Source: Acidimicrobiales bacterium (lineage in GTDB: Bacteria > Actinomycetota > Acidimicrobiia > Acidimicrobiales > UBA8592). From it: a stretch of 41,927 nt of DNA. The notes beneath the pieces were generated by a model. That model was not told the origin of the DNA. It was given only the letters and a program-made list of their open reading frames with translations, and did not search any database. The DNA lies in NCBI GenBank assembly GCA_029244605.1, contig JAQWQL010000043.1:1-41927 (forward strand), given 5' to 3'. How positions within the stretch are numbered: position 1 is the stretch's first letter; the number at the start of each line of letters is the position of its first letter. Positions 5,236 to 20,240 of this stretch are shown here, piece by piece. Both the position numbers and the translations under genes were made by a program.

Positions 5236-5591
5236 GAATCTTGGCTTTCCGGTATAAGTACATAGACTTCACCTTTATCGATCTCCACGTTAAATACTGG
5301 GACTGGCTGAGTCGCTGGTAACGATACGGGTTTACCATCGCAAAGTGAGAACTGCGCCCCATGCTTCCAGCACTCTATGGTGACGTCAGTAGTATCTACA
5401 GGCCCTTCGGAGAGTGAATACTTCGCATGGCTACACATATCTCCAATCGCATACATTTGGTCATGAATCCGAACAATAGCGATTTTTTGATCTTCTATAG
5501 TTACTCGTCGAGCTTCTCCATCTGGGACGTCATCAACTGCAAGAACACGGACTTTTTTTTCTGATGAATGCCCCTTCGTTTCAGCCACCAT
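5232..5591 (-). CDS. Rieske [2Fe-2S] ferredoxin of the suf cluster
   Basis: CSH at the first cluster-binding loop and CWKH at the second give the C-x-H...C-x2-H ligand pattern of Rieske proteins, here followed by a short beta domain. Proteins of this kind, often annotated as a dioxygenase ferredoxin subunit, commonly sit between sufD and sufC in actinobacteria, where they are thought to supply electrons or serve as a client of the pathway. The ORF track start (5633) is too far upstream. The ATG at 5591 lies within the last codons of sufD, overlapping its stop by 11 bases and giving 119 residues. Both overlaps with the neighbouring genes imply coupled translation. Confidence 0.9.
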   Translation of the reverse strand: MVAETKGHSSEKKVRVLAVDDVPDGEARRVTIEDQKIAIVRIHDQMYAIGDMCSHAKYSLSEGPVDTTDVTIECWKHGAQFSLCDGKPVSLPATQPVPVFNVEIDKGEVYVLIPESQDS

Positions 5592-6810
5592 TGAATTCCC
5601 TAGTGTTGAGTTTCTGGTTAAAAAGTTCCGCAATCCAACCGTTTATCCCATTAACAGGAAGTGAAGAGACGACTTCTTGAAGGAATCCATCGACGATCAG
5701 TTTCTCTGCTTCCGCCGTTGGGATACCCCTGCTTTCCAAATAGAAGCGTTGGTCTTCATCAACGGGGCTAACTGTAGAAGCATGACTGCATTTCACATCA
5801 TTGTTTTCGATTTCAAGATTTGGTACCGACTCTGCCCATGCTCTATCACAAAGTTTTAGTGTCCGGTTTGTTTGAAATGCATTTGTCCCTGGAGCCTCAT
5901 TATCTACATGAATTAAGCCGGTATATATAGAGTTTGATTGGTCGTCTAGAACACCTTTAAATAAGAGCTCGCTATATGTGTCTCTAGCCATGTGGCTCTG
6001 GCGGGTTCGGAAATCTAAAACTTGATCCCTGTCACCGTGATATATCGCTGAAATTTTCGCTGAGGCTCCGCGGCCGTTAAGGGAGCAAATTGTTTTTAGG
6101 CGGGCATATGAACCCCCTATTGCAGCTATTGCTCCATGAAAGTTGCCTTGTTGACCTACGGAAACATCTAGTGATCCTAATTTGACGACATTCGGGCCTA
6201 GATTTTGCACTTGTTGGTACTTGACGTTTGCACTATTCCCAACAACGATTTTTGTTTCTGGGACGACGAGAGCAGAAACTTCAGAATGGTGAAAGATTTC
6301 AACTATTTCAATTTTTGCATTTTCTTCAATATCGATGTGGATTAGGGGAAAAGAAGCAGCCTCGCTTTGTTGGCATAGATGATTGATAACTAGAGGTTTT
6401 TCTACCTGTGAATCTCTAGGGACACGAATAAGAATAGGGTCTGGAGAAAATGCCATATTCATAGAACCAAGCATGTCTATTGGGCTTGCAAACTCAATTG
6501 GATCTTCACGGTCTGCCGCAGAAAAAATTTCATAGGTTGATGGTTCATCATGGGAAAATAAAAATCCATCAACCGTCAAAATACTATGGAAATTATCTGA
6601 TTGGCTTGTGTATTCTTCAGGTATTGCCTGCGGTTTTTCTATCGCTGGGACGAAGCGGCCAAGTTCTAAGTCGTCTATTGGGCTGTAGCGCCACTCTTCT
6701 TGTTCGTGAGATGGGTAGTTAAATTCTATTGCACCGATAGCCATCCCTGTTCTAAGATCCTTCAGCCATTCGTGGCCGTTCAACTCTTGGGCTAGTTCTG
6801 GGGCATACAC
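5581..6810 (-). CDS. sufD: Fe-S cluster assembly protein SufD
   Basis: This 409-residue member of the SufB/SufD beta-helix family carries a C-terminal VKCSHASTVSPVDEDQ segment. Its histidine corresponds to the SufD residue that contributes, with a SufB cysteine, to the cluster assembly site. SufD lacks the longer N-terminal domain of SufB, as seen here. It forms the SufBC2D scaffold in the cytoplasm. The order sufD, Rieske, sufC with overlapping ends supports the call. Unusually, sufB is not directly upstream: a divergently oriented HAD phosphatase gene lies between them, so sufD probably has its own promoter in the roughly 100-base gap before 6810. Confidence 0.93.
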   Translation of the reverse strand: MYAPELAQELNGHEWLKDLRTGMAIGAIEFNYPSHEQEEWRYSPIDDLELGRFVPAIEKPQAIPEEYTSQSDNFHSILTVDGFLFSHDEPSTYEIFSAADREDPIEFASPIDMLGSMNMAFSPDPILIRVPRDSQVEKPLVINHLCQQSEAASFPLIHIDIEENAKIEIVEIFHHSEVSALVVPETKIVVGNSANVKYQQVQNLGPNVVKLGSLDVSVGQQGNFHGAIAAIGGSYARLKTICSLNGRGASAKISAIYHGDRDQVLDFRTRQSHMARDTYSELLFKGVLDDQSNSIYTGLIHVDNEAPGTNAFQTNRTLKLCDRAWAESVPNLEIENNDVKCSHASTVSPVDEDQRFYLESRGIPTAEAEKLIVDGFLQEVVSSLPVNGINGWIAELFNQKLNTREFNGG

Positions 6811-6964
6811 AGTAATTCCTTAGGGGTCATGCGCTTGTAAAGTATGGCGCCATGACGCTTTTATACTATCGGCGTAGTGGTAAACCACCTTCTTCTTCTC
6901 AGCGATTTTGATACCAAATTCTGTCCTCATAGGGTTTACTCTTTCCCCTCGCTATTCTGGGAGA

Positions 6965-7759
6965 GTGCTCCCCATAGTTTGCATAGACGTCGATGGAACT
7001 CTGGTAGGTTCATCAGGCTCTCCGACAGATAAAGTCTTAGCTGCAATTGGTGAGTCAGTCTCGAGAGGCCAAAATCTTATTTTGTCAACAGCTCGAGGCG
7101 CGATGGGGCCGACATATGAATATGCAAAGATTTTGAACCCCAAAGGGTGGCACATATTTCACGCGGGTGCAGCATTGATCAACACTGGGGGTCAGCTAAC
7201 TCGGGAATACCCTATTCCTAGCGACGTCCTAGAAACATGTATAAGGGTGGCAATAGAGCGCGAATGGGCGCTTGAACTCTACTGGAAGAGCAACTATCGC
7301 GCTTTCCGTCATAGTGATTTCACTAGGCGTCATGCAGAGATGCTCGGAATAGATCTAGAAATTGGGGGGCCAACTGACATTGAAGGAGATATTGTACGTC
7401 TTCAGTTTGTTATTCCAGAAAGTTCTCTTCCTGATGTCAAAGAAGCTTTAGATGGTTCAGGCACACTCCGATCAGCTACTTCTCCTGCGATGCCTGGAGT
7501 TTGCTTTGTTTCAATAACACAATCAGGCATCACCAAAGGAAAAGCAATTACGGAAATCTCTTCTATGCTAAATATCGATCTTTCGGATGTAATGATGGTC
7601 GGTGATGGCCATAACGACTTGGATGCACTTCGGGTTGTGGGGCATGGTGTGGCGATGGGGAATGCTGAACAACAGGTGATCGACGAATCAAGGTACCTAG
7701 TTAACACTGTCGACAACGATGGCCTTGTCGAAGCTTTGGAGTTCTCGTGGAGTCTATAG
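6965..7759 (+). CDS. HAD-superfamily Cof-type phosphatase
   Basis: Motif I is DVDGTL near the N-terminus and motif IV is MVGDGHNDLDAL. Between them is a large C2-type cap, which places it in the Cof/YidA-like subgroup of HAD hydrolases. These are typically cytoplasmic phosphatases acting on sugar phosphates, flavin-type nucleotides or similar small phosphates. The ORF track starts at a TTG (6908) that adds 19 residues before the first strand. The GTG at 6965 starts directly before the VCIDVDGT strand and gives 264 residues, normal for the family, so I prefer it with moderate certainty. The gene is alone on the + strand between sufB and sufD, converging on sufB and diverging from sufD. Confidence 0.8.
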   Translation: MLPIVCIDVDGTLVGSSGSPTDKVLAAIGESVSRGQNLILSTARGAMGPTYEYAKILNPKGWHIFHAGAALINTGGQLTREYPIPSDVLETCIRVAIEREWALELYWKSNYRAFRHSDFTRRHAEMLGIDLEIGGPTDIEGDIVRLQFVIPESSLPDVKEALDGSGTLRSATSPAMPGVCFVSITQSGITKGKAITEISSMLNIDLSDVMMVGDGHNDLDALRVVGHGVAMGNAEQQVIDESRYLVNTVDNDGLVEALEFSWSL

Positions 7760-7777
7760 GAAAGCTTTTCTAAAGGC

Positions 7778-9181
7778 CTATCCTACTGAGCCTTCCATTT
7801 GGAGTTCGATGAGCCGGCTCCATTCGACTGCGTATTCCATCGGAAGAGTTCGAGTTACTGGTTCTATGAATCCGTTGACGATCATTCCTGTTGCTTGTTC
7901 TTCAGTGAGACCTCGACTAGTCAGGTAGAAAAGCTGTTCATCCGCTACTTTTGAAACGGTTGCTTCGTGTCCAATCACAGCATCCTGGGAACCGATTTCC
8001 ATGTATGGGTAAGTGTCACTTATTGACTCTTCATCGAGAATAAGAGCATCGCATTGAACATGGCTTTTGCACCCATATGCTCCTTCCTCTACCCTGACGA
8101 GGCCGCGGTAACTGGACCGTCCACCATCTTTAGAAATAGATTTAGAAACAACCTTTGAGGTGGTTTCCGGCGCTGCATGGGTCATTTTCGCTCCTGCATC
8201 TTGATGCTGGCCGGCACCGGCATAGGCGACTGAAAGAACTTCCCCTGAAGCTTTTGGACCGACCATCACCACAGCGGGATACTTCATTGTTAGGCGGCTC
8301 CCGATATTCCCATCGATCCATTCCATATGGCCCTCTGCTTCTACTCGTGCTCGTTTAGTAACTAGGTTGAACACGTTATTAGACCAGTTTTGGATAGTGG
8401 TATAAGTAACACGGGCTGACTCTTTCACAATGATCTCAACGACAGCGGAATGAAGAGAATCGGTGCTATATACGGGGGCAGAGCAGCCCTCAATATAATG
8501 AACTTTTGATCCCTTGTCGGCAATGATAAGGGTCCTCTCAAACTGTCCCATATTCTCAGCGTTTATTCTGAAATATGCTTGTAACGGCATTTCAACTTCA
8601 ACGCCTTCTGGAACGTAGATGAACGAGCCTCCAGACCAAACAGCGGAATTAAGTGCCGAGAATTTATTATCGTTCGGTGGGATAACTTTTCCGAAATATG
8701 CCCGAACAATTTCCGGATATTCGCGTAAAGCCGTATCCATATCGCAAAAAATCACACCTTGAGCTTCTAGATCTTCACGATTTTTGTGGTAAACGACTTC
8801 CGATTCATACTGTGCGGTGACACCGGCTAGATATTTTCTCTCAGCTTCAGGTATTCCAAGTTTTTCATAGGTATCTTTGATTGCCTCAGGGACATCATCC
8901 CACTCGTCAACGACGCTTTCGCTGGGCTTGATGTAGTAGTAAATGTCATCAAAGAAGATCTCCGACGTGTCTCCGCCCCAATTTGGCATAGGACGACTTT
9001 GGAACTGCCTTAAAGATTTAAGACGGAAGTCACGCATCCAATTAGGCTCGCCCTTCATCCAAGAGATTTCTTTAACGAGGTCCTCATTCAAACCTTTTTG
9101 CGGTTTGAAGACATAATCTTCGGTATCGCTCCAACCTAGTTGGTATTTGCTTAGATCTATCTCTGTATTCGCTGCTGACAT
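7778..9181 (-). CDS. sufB: Fe-S cluster scaffold protein SufB
   Basis: This 467-residue protein is of standard SufB length. It has an N-terminal domain starting with the [19 protein letters not shown] pattern, then the beta-helix core. The C-terminal [13 protein letters not shown] segment contains the essential cysteine, and YPYMEIG carries the conserved glutamate, both linked to de novo cluster assembly. The [21 protein letters not shown] region is highly typical. SufB is the scaffold that takes sulfur (from SufU or SufE) and iron in complex with SufC and SufD. It is the first suf gene of the minus-strand run, preceded by a 102-base gap that probably holds its promoter. Confidence 0.96.
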
Positions 9182-9803: not shown

Positions 9804-10304
9804 TTATTTCTCCGGAAGCGTTCCAAATGACCCGTAGGCGCCGCCTAAAAACAAAAGAGGTTGACTCTCTGCGCTTCCCTCGCCCATTCCTTCAACAGAT
9901 CCAACGACAATATAGTGATCGCCTGCTTCATGTATTGCCTGAATAGAGCAGTCGATCCAAGCTACACATCCTCCAACTATTGGTGACCCTGTGGGCCCCG
10001 AAGTCCAATCAATGGCCTCAAATGGGTCTACTTCTTTATTAAAGAAACTATTACTGAGATCTAATTGGCCTTCTCCTAGAACGTTGACGCAATAATTCCC
10101 TGTCGCGTTAATTCGCTTCCAAGTTGCCGATTCCTTACCGGGCATGAACTGGACCAAAGGCGGGTCAAGGGAGACCGAGCCGAAAGAGCCAATAACCATA
10201 GCGAACGGGCCATCATCGTCTAAGGCGCTGACGAGAGTCACCCCTGTAGGGTACCGTCCTAATACAGATCGGAATTTAGCCCCATCTACATGGTCCTCGC
10301 TCAT
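9804..10304 (-). CDS. Flavin reductase-like domain protein
   Basis: The 166 residues match the flavin reductase (HpaC-like) fold: an N-terminal FRSVLGRYPTGVTLVSA block, the SFGSVSLDPPLVQF segment that binds FMN, and the NYCVNVLGEGQ core. Such enzymes reduce free flavin with NAD(P)H for a partner monooxygenase in the cytoplasm. No two-component monooxygenase is next to it; the LLM-family oxidoreductase at 18.2 kb is a conceivable but distant partner. It is the first gene of the minus-strand run and is divergent from the thioredoxin-fusion/selenoprotein unit, sharing a 187-base gap. Confidence 0.85.
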   Translation of the reverse strand: MSEDHVDGAKFRSVLGRYPTGVTLVSALDDDGPFAMVIGSFGSVSLDPPLVQFMPGKESATWKRINATGNYCVNVLGEGQLDLSNSFFNKEVDPFEAIDWTSGPTGSPIVGGCVAWIDCSIQAIHEAGDHYIVVGSVEGMGEGSAESQPLLFLGGAYGSFGTLPEK

Positions 10305-10491: not shown

Positions 10492-11940
10492 ATGGCGGAT
10501 AACCGACCACAATTACCTAATGGATTTGTTGCTTTCGTTAAGAAAGATTGTCCGACATGTGAACTTGTTGTACCTGTACTGGAACAGCTTGCTGAATTAG
10601 AGATCTTGAGCGCTGTCTTCACGCAGGACGACATATCATTTCCGGAGCTACCGGTAACTTCAGATGATACGTCGTTAGAAATTAGTTTCTTTCATGAAGT
10701 TGAAACCGTCCCTACACTTATGAAAATCCAAAATGGCATCGAGGTAGACCGTATTGTCGGCTGGTCTCAGGATCAGTGGGAAGCATTCGTGGGAGTCAAC
10801 GATCTAGGCCCTGATGGAATCCGCCCTTATAGTCCCGGCTGTGGTTCCTTGAGTGTGGACCCAGATCTTCAAGGGCAGTTACAGAAGAAGTATGGGTCTG
10901 GGATGACAAGCCGTGAAATAGCTTTTGCTTCGGCTGAAGATGAATTTGAAGCAATGTATGATCGTGGTTGGTCAGACGGCTTGCCCTTAATTCCTCCCAC
11001 CGTTGAACGGGTCTCAGCCATGCTGGCGGGAACAAACCGAGAACCAGAGGAAGTTCTTGCCCTAGTTCCACCGAATCTAGTTGATCTTACAGTCGAGAAA
11101 GTTGCTATCAACGCAGTGATGGCTGGTTGTAAACCTGAATACTTGCCGGTGGTTATTGCTGCCTTAGAGGCTGCTTGCACTGACCAGTTCAATATGCACG
11201 GTTTGCTCGCAACAACAATGCCAGTAGGTCCGATTCTCTTTGTCAATGGGCCGATCAGGAAATCCATTGGGATGAACTCTGGGATGAATCTTCTCGGGCA
11301 AGGAAATCGACCCAATAGCACTATTGGAAGAGCCATCCAACTTACTATTCGCAATGTAGGTGGTGGCCGCCCTGGCGAAGTTGACCGAGCTACTCATGGA
11401 AGTCCCGCTAAATATGGATTGTGCTTTGCTGAAGACGAAGAAGGTTCGCCATGGCCGTCTTATGCACAAGACCAGGGCTTCTCCCCTGAGCAGAACACAG
11501 TTACAATATTTCCCGGAGAGGGACCACGGGTGATAGTTGACCAGCTATCCCGATCTCCAGATGAATTAGCGAGAAGCCTCGCAATCGGAATCATCGGGAA
11601 CGTTCACCCTAAGTTGGTTATGGCTTTTGATGCGATATTGGTCATTGGCCCTGAACATGCTTCCCGTTTTGTTGAAGCAGGTTGGACAAAAGAAAAGGTA
11701 AACGAGGAGATAATCAACCACACCATCCGGGAAACTGATGAATTGGTTCGAGGAGCCGATGGGATCGGCGAAGGACTACCAGAGGTTTTCGCCGGATCAA
11801 CTCTCCCAAAATTGCGACCGGATGGCGGATTAATTATCCTCTATGGCGGTGGAGAAGCGGGTCTTTTCTCTGCCACTATAGGTGGATGGATTTCTGGAGA
11901 CAAAGGAAGCCTGTATCAAACAAGGGAGATAACTTTATGA
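10492..11940 (+). CDS. Thioredoxin domain fused to an uncharacterised domain; partner of UGSC selenoprotein
   Basis: The N-terminal ~100 residues look like a thioredoxin fold: a beta strand leading to C20-P-T-C23, an amphipathic helix, and a cis-proline motif TVPT (P74). A linker with PGCG (C117) follows. The remaining ~330 residues (from the YDRGWSDGLPLIPPT segment on) are conserved-looking and glycine/proline rich, with no catalytic motif I can name. The last four bases overlap the start of the selenoprotein gene (ATGA), so the two are translationally coupled and probably function together. A reasonable inference is a thiol/selenol redox pair in which the CPTC domain reduces the selenocysteine site. 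No signal peptide is visible, so it is likely cytoplasmic. The function of the C-terminal domain is unknown. Confidence 0.75.
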   Translation: MADNRPQLPNGFVAFVKKDCPTCELVVPVLEQLAELEILSAVFTQDDISFPELPVTSDDTSLEISFFHEVETVPTLMKIQNGIEVDRIVGWSQDQWEAFVGVNDLGPDGIRPYSPGCGSLSVDPDLQGQLQKKYGSGMTSREIAFASAEDEFEAMYDRGWSDGLPLIPPTVERVSAMLAGTNREPEEVLALVPPNLVDLTVEKVAINAVMAGCKPEYLPVVIAALEAACTDQFNMHGLLATTMPVGPILFVNGPIRKSIGMNSGMNLLGQGNRPNSTIGRAIQLTIRNVGGGRPGEVDRATHGSPAKYGLCFAEDEEGSPWPSYAQDQGFSPEQNTVTIFPGEGPRVIVDQLSRSPDELARSLAIGIIGNVHPKLVMAFDAILVIGPEHASRFVEAGWTKEKVNEEIINHTIRETDELVRGADGIGEGLPEVFAGSTLPKLRPDGGLIILYGGGEAGLFSATIGGWISGDKGSLYQTREITL

Positions 11941-12452
11941 CGACCAGCGTACTTGACCCTACTAATGAGCGAACCCCTGCCCATCGGACACGAGCTCAAA
12001 GAATCACCAGCCTCCAAGGGGCCACGATAGGGCTTCTCGATATAAGTAAACCTCGAGGAGATGTCTTTCTAGACACCATTCATTCTCTTCTTGAACAAAG
12101 AGGAGCACATGTGCTGCGATTTACAAAACCTACTTTCACTAAGCCTGCTCCGGTAGACCTTCGCCATGAAATTTCTACAACATGCGACGCCGTCATTGAA
12201 GCATTAGCCGATTGAGGAAGTTGCACGACATGCAGTGTGCATGACATAAGCGACCTTGAGCGAAGAGGAACTCCAGGTGTTTTTATTGCATCTGTTCCTT
12301 TCGTTTCTGCTGCTGAAACCCAATCTAAGGCACTTGGGTTTCCCCTTGCAGGATTATTCACAGCTCATCCGATACAAGATAGAACTGATGAAGAAATGAA
12401 AGTCCTAGGGGAAAATATCTTCGATGACCTTGTTAAGGAACTACTGGTCTAG
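11937..12452 (+). CDS. UGSC-family selenoprotein (in-frame TGA = selenocysteine 93)
   Basis: The ORF track splits this gene at TGA 12213-12215, but the frame continues uninterrupted to 12452. Read through, it is a 171-residue protein with U93-G-S-C96-T-T-C99. This matches the UGSC family, known to contain selenocysteine forms and cysteine homologues at that position. The N-terminal half (GATIGLLDISKPRGDVFLDTI) and C-terminal half (VFIASVPFVSAAETQSKALGF) together look like one alpha/beta domain, which supports readthrough over two separate genes. A perfect hairpin 14 bases after the TGA fits a bacterial SECIS. It starts inside the end of the thioredoxin-fusion gene (ATGA) and overlaps the convergent YcaQ-like gene by 12 bases. 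The catalytic role is unknown; thiol/selenol redox chemistry is inferred. Confidence 0.88.
12229..12243 (+). promoter_or_regulatory. Candidate bacterial SECIS hairpin
   Basis: CATGCA-GTG-TGCATG forms a perfect 6-bp stem with a three-base loop starting with G, about 20 bases downstream of the TGA. One more G-C pair can form beyond an A-A mismatch. Bacterial SECIS elements lie immediately 3' of the UGA, inside the coding sequence, with a G in the apical loop at roughly this distance to recruit SelB. A competing hairpin (TGCAC with GTGCA) is weaker. Confidence 0.65.
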
Positions 12453-13673: not shown

Positions 13674-14537
13674 TCATGTCGGCAGCCTGTACCCTGTCTT
13701 CCCGTTGCGCTCAACCAAACCATCTTTAATAAGGCCTGCTACGACCCGTTTGCACCTTTCTGGGTCGCCCGTCCAACCCATGACCTCTTCAAGCTCTGAA
13801 CAGGCAATCTTTCTTTTCCGTAAGGCATTCACAAGTTTTCCCCGCCCTTGACGGTCAGATCCTTCGAATTTTTCTTTTGGGTTGGTGGTTGAGATTTTTG
13901 GCTTCGATGGATCTAGCCCCTCCCCCTTCCAGCGGCAATAGTTGGATAGCGGACAATTTTCGCAATCTGCGGATCGGGATTTACACACATCCGACCCGAG
14001 GTCCATTAAAGCCTGATTCCAGACCCATCCTTGCCCTTCAGGGACAAAATTATCTGCTTTTTCCTGCATTTCTTCAGGGGTTAACTTTTCTCCTGTGACT
14101 CTCGAAATGATTCTATGGATGTTGACGTCAACGACTCCAACATCTTCTTCAAAAGCAAAACATAAGATAGCGCGTGATGTATATGGCCCTACCCCTGGAA
14201 GCTTCAAAAGAGCTGACAGCGTATCTGGAACTAGTCCATGATGCATCTCTACTATTTTTTGAGCTGACCTGTGAAGGTTAATCGCTCTTCTGTTATACCC
14301 CAAACCTTCCCAGTCATCGATAATGGACGAGAGAGGAGCTTCAGCGCACTCTTGGGGCGTAGGGTACTTCTTAAGAAAACATTTATACTTGGGAATTACC
14401 CTAGATACCTGAGTCTGCTGAAGCATCGCTTCTGAGACCATAATTGACCATGGGTCGCGAGTTTGCCTCCATGGAAGGTCACGGGAGCTTTCCTCCCACC
14501 ATTGGATCAGCGCTTTTTGTTGTTCAGTGTGCCCCAC
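13674..14537 (-). CDS. mutY: A/G-specific adenine DNA glycosylase MutY
   Basis: MutY removes adenine mispaired with 8-oxoguanine. The sequence has the SEAMLQQTQV segment with the catalytic glutamate, the helix-hairpin-helix LPGVGPYTSRAI, the VVDVNIHRI segment with the conserved aspartate, and the [4Fe-4S] ligand pattern C-x6-C-x2-C-x5-C (CKSRSADCENCPLSNYC). At 287 residues it lacks the full C-terminal NUDIX-like 8-oxoG recognition domain of E. coli MutY, which is common in actinobacteria; the C-terminus instead shows a short winged-helix-like tail. Its Fe-S cluster depends on the SUF system encoded in this window. It is followed by the YcaQ-like gene on the same strand. Confidence 0.92.
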   Translation of the reverse strand: MGHTEQQKALIQWWEESSRDLPWRQTRDPWSIMVSEAMLQQTQVSRVIPKYKCFLKKYPTPQECAEAPLSSIIDDWEGLGYNRRAINLHRSAQKIVEMHHGLVPDTLSALLKLPGVGPYTSRAILCFAFEEDVGVVDVNIHRIISRVTGEKLTPEEMQEKADNFVPEGQGWVWNQALMDLGSDVCKSRSADCENCPLSNYCRWKGEGLDPSKPKISTTNPKEKFEGSDRQGRGKLVNALRKRKIACSELEEVMGWTGDPERCKRVVAGLIKDGLVERNGKTGYRLPT

Positions 14538-16821: not shown

Positions 16822-18075
16822 TTAAATCTTGTCAAATTCGATATGTAACTCTTTCATAGGACGAAGAAAGAAGCTGAACTTGTGTGGGTTATCGTCAAGC
16901 GGTTTGGCAAGTCGGATATTATCCATCCGGTCAAGAATTGCAGTGAAGGCAGACATCAGTTCGGCTCTTGCGAGTGAAGCCCCCATACAAAAATGGCTTC
17001 CCAGCCCGAAAGCCACATGCTTATGTAGATCTTCTCGGGTAATGTCAAAAACTTCGGGGCTTTCGAAGACTTCAGCATCTCTGTTCGCAGCAGCAAACCT
17101 TGGCATTACAGCTGACCCTTCGGGGATAGAGGCACCCCCTATTTCTGCTGGGCATGCTGCAGTTCTCCATAATCCAGCTACTGGGCTATCAAATCTCAAA
17201 CTTTCCTCTATAAAATTTTTCTGCAGGGATCTATCGTCCCGCAATTTTTGCATCTGATCAGGGTACCTCAATAGAAGCCACATCGAAGTTCCTATCGCTG
17301 CAGTGGTAGTCTCAAACCCTCCAGTCACTAGTTGATGCATTAGGTCTTGAAGTTCTTCCATTGTGAATGGTTCATCTTCTTGGTGAGCGTGAACCAACGC
17401 TGAAATCAGGTCATCTGTTGGTTCTTCTCTACGTTTCTCGAATTCTCGAGCTAAGTGATGTTGGGCTTCAACTTCATATTCTGCCTGAATTACAGCCTCA
17501 TCTGGGGAAAGTGGACGCTGTGACATTGCCAACATCGCATCCGCCCACTTTTTAAATGTCTCGTACTCCTCCGCTGGAAGGCCTAGTTGTTCGCAAATAA
17601 AAATCCCTGGCAAGGGTAAGGCAAATTCTGAAACAAATTCACACTGACCCCTATCAATAAATTGGTCGATCAAACTATGGGTAATTTCATCAATTCGAGG
17701 AATCATTCCCTCCACGGCACGATTTGTAAATACCCTGCCAAGTATTTTCCGGTAATGACTGTGCTCTGGCGGGTCCGTCCGTTGCAGCGTTCGGCCTTTA
17801 ACCCAACCCTTTTCTTGGAAGACCTGCGCATGCGCTTTTGATGCCTCGTTAAGACCTCCGGCCCCTGTCCCTGGCCGACTTGAATATATGGATGGAGTCG
17901 TCAAGACCTCTCTGACATCTTCATATTTCGTCACCATATACAACCCATTCTCTGGGACTTTGTATACAGGGCACTTCTCATGGAGAGTCGTATAGGTATC
18001 GAAGGGATCATCTTGAACAGCAGGATCTAAGAAACTTTCTTCCAATTCAAACAATTCATCAGCCATAGATCTCAC
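16822..18075 (-). CDS. Cytochrome P450
   Basis: The 417-residue soluble bacterial-type P450 shows the heme-binding loop FGLGSHFCMG (cysteine ligand about residue 363), the I-helix oxygen-activation motif GGFETTT and the K-helix E-x-x-R as EESLR. It has no membrane anchor. P450s of this class hydroxylate hydrophobic substrates using an external ferredoxin and reductase, which are not adjacent. The GTG at 18075 has an AAGGA-type ribosome binding site at suitable distance, while the ATG nine bases later is further from it, so I keep the longer form. In this lipid-rich neighbourhood an alkane, fatty acid, terpenoid or steroid substrate is plausible but not shown. Confidence 0.93.
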   Translation of the reverse strand: MRSMADELFELEESFLDPAVQDDPFDTYTTLHEKCPVYKVPENGLYMVTKYEDVREVLTTPSIYSSRPGTGAGGLNEASKAHAQVFQEKGWVKGRTLQRTDPPEHSHYRKILGRVFTNRAVEGMIPRIDEITHSLIDQFIDRGQCEFVSEFALPLPGIFICEQLGLPAEEYETFKKWADAMLAMSQRPLSPDEAVIQAEYEVEAQHHLAREFEKRREEPTDDLISALVHAHQEDEPFTMEELQDLMHQLVTGGFETTTAAIGTSMWLLLRYPDQMQKLRDDRSLQKNFIEESLRFDSPVAGLWRTAACPAEIGGASIPEGSAVMPRFAAANRDAEVFESPEVFDITREDLHKHVAFGLGSHFCMGASLARAELMSAFTAILDRMDNIRLAKPLDDNPHKFSFFLRPMKELHIEFDKI

Positions 18076-18171
18076 AATAGCATCCTTATCTTTCTTGCTC
18101 TACCCAATGCCCTCCAACAAGAACACGACCGCTGTTTGATCTATGCTTCCATTGAAAGAATTGGAGCTCAA

Positions 18172-19074
18172 ATGAAAATACGGATCGGCTTTGGCTTAGG
18201 AACTCGATCAAAAGTGAGCGACCCTGAAACTTTAGGGGGCCTAGCCCAAGGATTGGAGCGGCTTGGCTTTGATTCACTCTGGTTTTCCGAGCGTGTCTCA
18301 GGAACAGGGCTAGATCCGATAGTAGCAATGAGCTGGATTGCAGCCCGAACAGAAAAACTAAAATTCGGGCCCTCAGTTATGGTTCTCCCTGGTCGCAACC
18401 CTGTACTTGTTGCAAAGTCAATTGCTAGCCTTGACCGAATCTCAAATGGTCGGGTGCTTCCAGCCTTTGGGCTAGGTGCTGTTAATTTGGGGGAGCATCA
18501 GGCCTTTGGAGTAGAGAGAAAGGATCGATCTCCGTGGTTCAATGAGGCCCTACCGCTAATACGTCGTTTATGGGAAGAAGATAGTGTTAGCCATAGTGGC
18601 CCCCAATTTCAACTTCAGGACGTTCGAGTTAAGCCGAAACCCATTCAAGAACCTCTTGATATTTGGCTTGGAGGTATTGCCCCATCAGAATTAAAGCGAG
18701 TGGGGCAGTTAGGTGATGGTTGGTTACCAAGCTTTTGCACTGCGGATGATGTTGCAGAAGCTATTCCTCAAATCGATGAGCATTCCAAGAATTCCGGAAG
18801 AAAGAGTATCGATAGAGAACATTTTGGCGCTTTGATTGTCTATTCAGTGGATGGTTCTATGCCCGATCAGGTAATTAGCGCGGTTCAAAGTAGAAGGCCA
18901 GAGGTAAATGCTGAAGACATCATTGTCCAAAGCCGTGAGAAGTTGTCTTCTCGGATACAGGAATTCATTGAAGCGGGCGCAAGTAAATTTGTTCTAATGC
19001 CCTATGTGGAACCTGAGGATTGGAACCATGAAATTAATTGCCTAGCTGAAGAGACCCTTCACCTTCAAAATTAA
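18172..19074 (+). CDS. LLM-class (luciferase-like) flavin-dependent oxidoreductase
   Basis: The protein begins KIRIGFGLGTRSK and contains GLERLGFDSLWFSERVSG, the SIASLDRISNGRVLPAFGLG block and the PLDIWLGGIAPSELKRVGQLGDGWLPSF block. All are characteristic of the bacterial luciferase-like/F420-dependent superfamily with a TIM-barrel fold. Actinobacterial members use reduced F420 or FMN; which one applies here cannot be read directly. The ATG at 18172 has GGAG eight bases upstream and starts at the first beta strand, so I prefer it to the track start at 18136. This gives 300 residues. The gene is divergent from the P450 gene and stands alone. Confidence 0.88.
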   Translation: MKIRIGFGLGTRSKVSDPETLGGLAQGLERLGFDSLWFSERVSGTGLDPIVAMSWIAARTEKLKFGPSVMVLPGRNPVLVAKSIASLDRISNGRVLPAFGLGAVNLGEHQAFGVERKDRSPWFNEALPLIRRLWEEDSVSHSGPQFQLQDVRVKPKPIQEPLDIWLGGIAPSELKRVGQLGDGWLPSFCTADDVAEAIPQIDEHSKNSGRKSIDREHFGALIVYSVDGSMPDQVISAVQSRRPEVNAEDIIVQSREKLSSRIQEFIEAGASKFVLMPYVEPEDWNHEINCLAEETLHLQN

Positions 19075-19085
19075 CTACCCTGACT

Positions 19086-20240
19086 TCAAGAGAGAGCATG
19101 GGCAAGGTCTTCTATCAAGTCGTCAACTGTTTCAATTCCGACAGATAGGCGTATTAATGCACCATCAACTTCAAGTGGAGATCCTTCTGCGGAAAGGTGC
19201 GTCATAGCTGCTGGAACTTCTATGAGTGATTCTACGGCTCCAAGGGACTCCGCAAGAGTGAAAACATTGGTCTTTGCAGCTATCTGGCGAGCTGCTTCCG
19301 CTCCCCCTTTAACCGTGAATGAGACCATGCCGCCATATTTTTTCATCTGCTTTTGGGCTATCTCATAGGTCGGATGTTCACGAAGTCCCGGATAGAGAAC
19401 ACCTGCAACTTTCGGGTGGTCTAGGAGAAAATTAACAATACTCTCAGCATTTTCACAGTGGCGGTCCATCCGAACAGGAAGAGTTTTTATCCCTCGAAGA
19501 AGTAGATAGCAGTCCCACGGTGCAGGCACTGCTCCTATAGCGTTCTGCAGAAAAGCTATCTCTTGATCAAGTTCTGAAGAATTCGTCGCTATAAAACCAC
19601 CAACAACATCCGAATGGCCGCCTAAATATTTAGTCGTTGAGTGCACTACAAAATCTGCCCCATGAGCAAGTGGCTGTTGGAGGTAAGGGGTAGCGAATGT
19701 ATTGTCGACAACACACAAAGCGCCCGACGAATGGGCTAGTTCAGACAGCATCTGAATATCAACAACCGACAACAGTGGATTAGACGGGGTCTCTGTCCAA
19801 ATAATGCGAGTCTGCTCAGTCATGCAGTTTTCAATGTTTTCTTTTCTTGAAAAGTCTGCCGCAGACCATGTAACTCCCATGCGCGTAAGAACTTTTGAAA
19901 TTAAACGGAAGGTTCCGCCATATGCATCGTTGCCCATAACAATATGGTCGCCGGGATTTAAGAGTCTTAGGATCGTATCTTCTGCTGCCATGCCGCTAGC
20001 GAATGCTCTACCGAACTCAGCTCCTTCTAATGCTGCAATGCTTAATTCCAAAGCATCTCTTGTAGGGTTCCCTGTTCTTGAGTACTCATATCCCCTGTCT
20101 TCCCCTACAGCATCTTGCTCATAGGTTGTTGTCTGGTAGACAGGGACGGTTATAGCGCCAGTTCGAGGGTCAGGTTTTTGTCCAGCATGTATTGCCCTTG
20201 TTTCGAATCCCCACCGTTCGTCCATATTCTCGCTAGCCAT
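19086..20240 (-). CDS. metB: Cystathionine gamma-synthase/gamma-lyase family PLP enzyme
   Basis: This 384-residue Cys/Met-metabolism PLP enzyme has YEYSRTGNPTRDALE (phosphate-binding Tyr/Arg), the FASGMAAEDTIL block, VDNTFATPYLQQPLAHGAD with the cofactor-binding aspartate, and VHSTTKYLGGHSD with the Schiff-base lysine. It begins two bases after the cystathionine beta-synthase gene, so the pair encodes transsulfuration. With CBS making cystathionine from homocysteine and serine, this enzyme most likely cleaves it to cysteine (gamma-lyase). The two activities are not separable by sequence alone, so the metB symbol is provisional. Cysteine formed this way would also feed the SUF system. Confidence 0.88.
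   Translation of the reverse strand: MASENMDERWGFETRAIHAGQKPDPRTGAITVPVYQTTTYEQDAVGEDRGYEYSRTGNPTRDALELSIAALEGAEFGRAFASGMAAEDTILRLLNPGDHIVMGNDAYGGTFRLISKVLTRMGVTWSAADFSRKENIENCMTEQTRIIWTETPSNPLLSVVDIQMLSELAHSSGALCVVDNTFATPYLQQPLAHGADFVVHSTTKYLGGHSDVVGGFIATNSSELDQEIAFLQNAIGAVPAPWDCYLLLRGIKTLPVRMDRHCENAESIVNFLLDHPKVAGVLYPGLREHPTYEIAQKQMKKYGGMVSFTVKGGAEAARQIAAKTNVFTLAESLGAVESLIEVPAAMTHLSAEGSPLEVDGALIRLSVGIETVDDLIEDLAHALS

Follow-up and report, generated by a model that had tools for sequence, protein, structure and literature searches.

Positions 10492-12452 of the window, i.e. the whole stretch of 41,927 nucleotides analysed from an Acidimicrobiales genome, probably encode a thioredoxin-fed two-subunit reductase that works in the manner of GrdB/PrdB, with an unrelated second subunit. 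One subunit is a predicted selenoprotein of the UGSC family, whose gene is interrupted by an in-frame TGA; comparative sequence evidence confirmed that this gene is genuine and that its apparent break would be a selenocysteine (Sec) codon. The other subunit is encoded just upstream, and the two proteins form an obligate pair. The reductase reading is based on the Sec evidence, the partner, the homology with GrdB, the predicted fold and the link with thioredoxin. The features are as follows.

10492..11940, + strand: partner protein, 482 aa, with a thioredoxin-like N-terminal domain and an unnamed conserved core (ORF list)
10528..10773, + strand: thioredoxin-like domain of the partner, residues ~13-94 (TIGR01068, hhalign)
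10549-10560, + strand: CxxC motif C20-P-T-C23 of the partner, within the thioredoxin-like domain
10942..11880, + strand: core domain of the partner (conservation, AF2 model)
11937..12452, + strand: predicted UGSC-family selenoprotein gene, 171 residues, Sec at 93 (frame, motif, UGSC profile matches)
12213..12215, + strand: predicted Sec codon TGA, U93 (TGA aligned in 24 Sec loci; TGC/TGT in about 80 Cys loci)
12222..12224, + strand: codon of the invariant C96, likely the resolving cysteine of UxxC (85/85 aligned sequences)
12227..12245, + strand: SECIS-like hairpin (pairing, covariation, published bacterial SECIS limits)

The in-frame TGA of the UGSC gene

The UGSC frame opens with an ATG at 11937, is interrupted once by an in-frame TGA (12213-12215) and ends with a TAG at 12450-12452 (92 codons, U and 78 codons). 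The original prediction had described two ORFs of the same frame, split by a TGA and giving 171 residues when joined, which standard annotation would report as two pieces. The frame agrees with this description, and the ORF caller indeed returned two ORFs, one of 109 aa (92 aa from the ATG at 11937) that stops at the TGA and one of 71 aa that starts from a GTG at 12237. The motif around U93 is D-U-G-S-C-T-T-C (D92-U93-G94-S95-C96), which matches the family pattern [U/C]-G-[S/A]-C with its flanking D. Its assignment to the UGSC family was borne out by two profiles that exceeded their cut-offs with alignments spanning the TGA, PF24696 (139.8 bits, cut-off 25) and NF041046 (149 bits, cut-off 125). 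The proposed U-x2-C-x2-C layout stood for U93 and C96, which are found family-wide, but not for position 99, which is variable (C, W or Y). Across the whole window, no second convincing Sec case was found among the other long frames joined by a TGA.

The alignment of UGSC members with CGSC homologues continues through the TGA, the latter having Cys at the site of U93. In the alignment, this codon is TGA in 22 of 26 sequences and TGC or TGT in the 4 others. The identity of the protein to 11 close relatives is 58-68% upstream of the TGA and is still 50-63% downstream, so that the loss of conservation that could have undermined the original prediction was not observed; on either side of it, the substitutions are located mainly at the third positions of codons. 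A pseudogene or a sequencing error, in which the TGA would be a true stop followed by a decaying sequence, would fit a gene that standard annotation splits and a contig that belongs to a draft genome. Nevertheless, the same TGA is present in 24 loci from many genomes, and the constraint on both sides of it, the covariation of the SECIS hairpin and the Sec machinery (see below) make such an explanation extremely improbable; as far as sequences can tell, conservation already refutes it.

The SECIS-like hairpin starts 11 nt past the UGA and carries a GUG loop at 12235-12237, with a distance of 19 nt from the UGA to the loop and a folding energy of -10.5 kcal/mol for a 45-nt stretch. This distance and this energy are within the limits of bacterial SECIS elements (PMC13188914). 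The stem has eight positions, seven of which are paired in the window copy, with one A-A mismatch. A complete inner stem of five pairs is present in 23 of 24 Sec loci versus 3 of 78 Cys loci. Across 23 Sec sequences, 95.7% of the stem cells pair, three pairs are changed on both sides and the observed covariation score was equalled by none of 500 shuffles. For instance, a change of residue 99 from Cys (UGC) to Trp (UGG) is accompanied by a change of the opposite base to C, and one G-C pair is replaced by A-U in the window copy. The MFE z-scores against synonymous shuffles were mostly unremarkable; the SECIS argument is carried by the number of stem pairs formed and by the contrast between Sec and Cys loci, not by the MFE. 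The predicted hairpin and its covariation represent independent evidence for Sec. An Rfam search around the UGSC gene returned nothing real.

The Sec machinery, whose presence in the same genome had been proposed as a check, was searched family by family in the source assembly (1.69 Mb, 113 contigs, 76% complete). The tRNA-Sec (67.4 bits; called tRNA-SeC, tca, by ARAGORN), SelA (372 bits) and SelD (376 bits) were all above their cut-offs, the SelD gene itself carrying an in-frame TGA. SelB was detected only as a C-terminal piece of 227 residues; this match begins at a contig edge and SelB is therefore incomplete in the assembly. TGA is recoded in some bacterial lineages, and it could be read here as another amino acid (e.g. 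Trp) through a changed code or a suppressor. We consider this highly implausible, as tRNA-Sec, SelA and SelD are all in the genome, the homologues carry Cys, and never Trp among those counted, at the site of U93, and TGA terminates other genes of the window (e.g. the partner and an ORF ending at 13676).

A second, diverged UGSC-partner pair was observed in the source genome (contig C100; UGSC at 17877-18392, partner at 18496-19446). This UGSC copy has a UGAC motif and its own TGA, and shares its contig with the SelD gene. In addition, two PrdB-like proteins with an in-frame TGA (contigs C18 and C65) present the motif P-[VI]-U-P-x-C, which brings the number of predicted selenoproteins, SelD included, to at least five in this small genome.

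An obligate partner with a thioredoxin-like domain

UGSC is one half of an obligate two-protein pair. In the window, the stop codon of the partner overlaps the start codon of UGSC (ATGA, 11937-11940). In 108 out of 108 loci, selected by the presence of UGSC, the partner core (residues ~142-470) lies at most 440 bp from UGSC, either upstream or downstream and sometimes in the same chain. Independent searches of 397 genomes of the phylum detected UGSC over its cut-off in 27 genomes, the partner in 28 and both in 27; the partner is thus present in 27/27 UGSC genomes and UGSC in 27/28 partner genomes (Fisher test, 5e-41). The sole exception (G184:C272) displays four partner-core matches, forming two pairs that are each contained in a single long open frame, and the search of this genome yielded no UGSC match. 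A fusion of UGSC with a domain named "Unknown_1" was reported in 2008, and this domain may be the partner described here.

The partner core matched no family in Pfam or NCBIfam and, by sequence, no relative among solved structures (PDB). Its AF2 model has a pLDDT mostly above 90 over the core, and the fold search of this model against the PDB gave no match below E 1e-3. Residues D162, G163, P165, R280, D298 and E314 are invariant, C213 and C311 are conserved in 89% and 87% of the sequences, respectively, and K307 and H389 are mostly conserved. The possibility that the partner is a relative of GrdE or GrdB was considered and rejected (probability of 0.1% against a GrdE-like alignment). Partner cores carried by plasmids are annotated as "hypothetical protein".

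The N-terminus of the partner matches TIGR01068 (E 6e-5) and, with hhalign, a thioredoxin profile (probability 89%, E 2e-6). The CxTC motif and the cis-proline motif TVPT were found in the partner N-termini of the 10 relatives compared, and partners throughout the clade of the window carry the thioredoxin-like domain as a fusion. Elsewhere, trx or trxB genes lie within 1.2 kb of the pair in 10 out of 100 loci, with distances skewed toward the pair (P = 3e-5). The gene order is trxB-trxA-partner-UGSC in Arthrobacter and partner-UGSC-trxB in Roseovarius. In most loci, a thioredoxin gene is absent beside the pair.

The Cys homologues comprise 79 named CGSC/CGAC loci, distributed among Actinomycetota, Pseudomonadota, Myxococcota, haloarchaea, Archaeoglobi and others; because the scan pattern required Cys codons, only Cys loci could enter this set. 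On a quick partner tree, we counted 8 Sec/Cys switches, at least 5 of which are forced by well-supported branches. On this tree, MAG records titled Bifidobacterium breve (L063, L065 and L092) cluster with Acidimicrobiia-like sequences, and their titles look wrong from this placement. Moreover, one genome of the same order and a Microthrixaceae MAG have an identical partner sequence in common.

Fold of UGSC and relationship with GrdB and PrdB

A thioredoxin-like fold had been proposed as likely for UGSC (PMC2398784). In the AlphaFold2 model (pLDDT 94.7), five strands and the helices follow each other in alternation, and Sec immediately precedes a helix. By sequence, UGSC matched no relative among solved structures, and the best matches of the model in the PDB fold search were only generic Rossmann/flavodoxin-like folds. 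From the order of the elements and these matches, we infer a parallel, Rossmann-like sheet. The thioredoxin fold was rejected for UGSC, on the basis of the model topology and of an hhalign control against thioredoxin (0.4%).

At the level of profiles, the UGSC domain is a homologue of the Sec domain of GrdB/PrdB, the Sec subunits of glycine, betaine, sarcosine and D-proline reductases. When UGSC was compared by hhalign with GrdB of the same phylum, the probabilities were 85.6-91.8% (E 5.6e-6 to 7e-7); the two Sec positions coincided in the alignment, and so did the G-[IV]-P and PHP motifs. Weak matches to TIGR01917 (E<0.1) were obtained for 50 of 85 UGSC members, the best at 1e-6. PrdB-like proteins with an in-frame TGA, including the two of the source genome, match GrdB (99.5%) and UGSC (probability 75%). 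A PF07355 search of the source genome matched the latter two proteins (C18 and C65), not the UGSC gene. UGSC falls below the cut-offs of the GrdB families (18 bits vs. 602 for TIGR01917; 14 vs. 65 for TIGR01918), it has no GrdE partner and its Sec is preceded by D and not by S-T. UGSC is therefore not a member of the GrdB family. GrdB-like proteins of the source phylum (L126-L140) display S/A-T-U-G-T motifs and have GrdE-like neighbours.

Proposed reaction and comparison with known systems

From the evidence above, we infer a reductase reaction in which U93 of the UGSC subunit, located where a helix of its Rossmann-like domain begins, would act as the reactive selenolate, while the partner core would most likely complete the active site and bind the substrate. 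U93 would attack a small metabolite, probably of the carboxylate type, at an activated carbon or heteroatom, and C96 would resolve the adduct or the selenenyl-sulfide. The selenol-thiol form would then be restored by the thioredoxin-like domain fused to the partner or, elsewhere, by separate trxA/trxB products. Glycine reductase receives its electrons from NADPH via thioredoxin reductase and thioredoxin (PMC3091704), and GrdB-like proteins have been proposed to act on other acids, e.g. fluoroacetate (PMC10838667). The selenol redox chemistry put forward by the original prediction is plausible, although general. That prediction did not mention the partner protein, the association with thioredoxin or the GrdB-type domain.

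Concerning the substrate, the recurrent neighbours of the pair encode CoA transferases, CoA ligases, acyl-CoA dehydrogenases, enoyl-CoA hydratases, lyases, amidohydrolases and TRAP/TTT transporters. The CoA-pathway enzymes, the amidohydrolases and the transporters suggest small carboxylates. Neighbour sets vary between lineages, which may reflect several substrates or a general protective role, and no single conserved metabolic neighbour naming a substrate was found across the neighbourhoods compared. In Arthrobacter, Natrinema and two further actinobacteria (L073 and L074), phosphosulfolactate-synthase-like genes lie in the vicinity of UGSC, with coordinates 5636-6424 in locus L172 and 6497-6964 in L166; they may hint at a sulfonate-type substrate. 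In the window, the pair is accompanied on the - strand by a flavin reductase gene (9804-10304) and two genes encoding Suf-like (SufB/SufD) proteins (5581-9181), and both gene types are also found near the pair in several relatives.

Several observations count against the reductase reading. No homology between the partner core and GrdE could be detected, D precedes U in UGSC in place of the S-T of GrdB, most loci are devoid of an adjoining thioredoxin gene, and the neighbours are lineage-dependent. A peroxidase activity of GrdB, as indicated by a title cited in PMC3091704, also counts against it. The pair could be a general thiol/selenol peroxidase or disulfide reductase, fed by thioredoxin and protecting the cell from oxidants. 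The UxxC motif and the thioredoxin association would be consistent with this role, as would the grouping of UGSC with redox selenoproteins (PMC2398784) and the many hosts from aerobic groups. However, we regard it as unlikely, since the UGSC fold is neither thioredoxin- nor peroxiredoxin-like, a simple peroxidase would not be expected to have an obligate partner whose invariant residues include D, R and E, and annotated relatives often lie within catabolic clusters with transporters. A non-reductase is rather improbable as well; here, a covalent adduct of the selenolate or thiolate would serve a lyase, transferase or isomerase reaction of CoA-linked catabolism, and thioredoxin would only rescue the oxidized enzyme. 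The CoA transferases, CoA ligases, enoyl-CoA hydratases, lyases and amidohydrolases nearby, the dispensable second cysteine at position 99 and the scarcity of thioredoxin neighbours speak for such a catalyst, but C96 is invariant, suggesting a redox pair, and the partner bears a thioredoxin domain throughout the clade of the window.

A thioredoxin-fed reductase remains our preferred reading. More tentatively, UGSC and its partner might constitute a separate and widespread GrdB-type reductase class in bacteria and haloarchaea, many of which belong to aerobic groups. It would combine a stand-alone GrdB-like Sec/Cys domain with an unrelated substrate-binding subunit of unmatched fold. Fed by thioredoxin, it would cleave bonds reductively in catabolic pathways from which no glycine-reductase chemistry has been reported. 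The UGSC family was catalogued in 2008 or before and, in line with the original prediction, no function is assigned to it in PMC2398784 and PMC13188914. A literature search, with many subscription papers and database notes outside its scope, found no description of the pairing, the GrdB relationship or the thioredoxin coupling. The obligate partner, the thioredoxin-partner fusion in the clade of the window and the evidence against the published "likely Trx-like fold" are new here. With the partner, the GrdB-type Sec domain and the association with thioredoxin, what was an "unknown redox selenoprotein" becomes a concrete enzyme complex open to testing, and the obligate pairing names the protein that has to be co-expressed for an activity to show.

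Compared with known systems, the protein is no different from the UGSC family itself (PF24696, NF041046; PMC2398784, PMC13188914), with the same sequence, motif and Sec position. Thioredoxin (PF00085/TIGR01068) resembles the N-terminal CPTC domain of the partner, which is low-scoring and fused, and does not share the fold of UGSC. GrdB/PrdB (PF07355, TIGR01917, TIGR01918, TIGR04483) have in common with UGSC the aligned Sec, the UxxC, G-[IV]-P and PHP motifs and, for the pair, a thioredoxin-fed, two-subunit layout. They differ by an N-terminal part of GrdB that is absent from UGSC, by S-T-U in GrdB instead of D-U, and by a GrdE/PrdA-type pyruvoyl proprotein partner, the UGSC partner core being unrelated to GrdE at the profile level. 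Finally, the fluoroacetate reductase FarB/FarE of Synergistota (PMC10838667) also associates a GrdB-like selenoprotein with a second subunit for a proposed non-amino-acid carboxylate substrate, but this is a genuine GrdB/GrdE pair, found in anaerobes and presumed to supply GrdA and GrdC, and it has no UGSC-type partner core.
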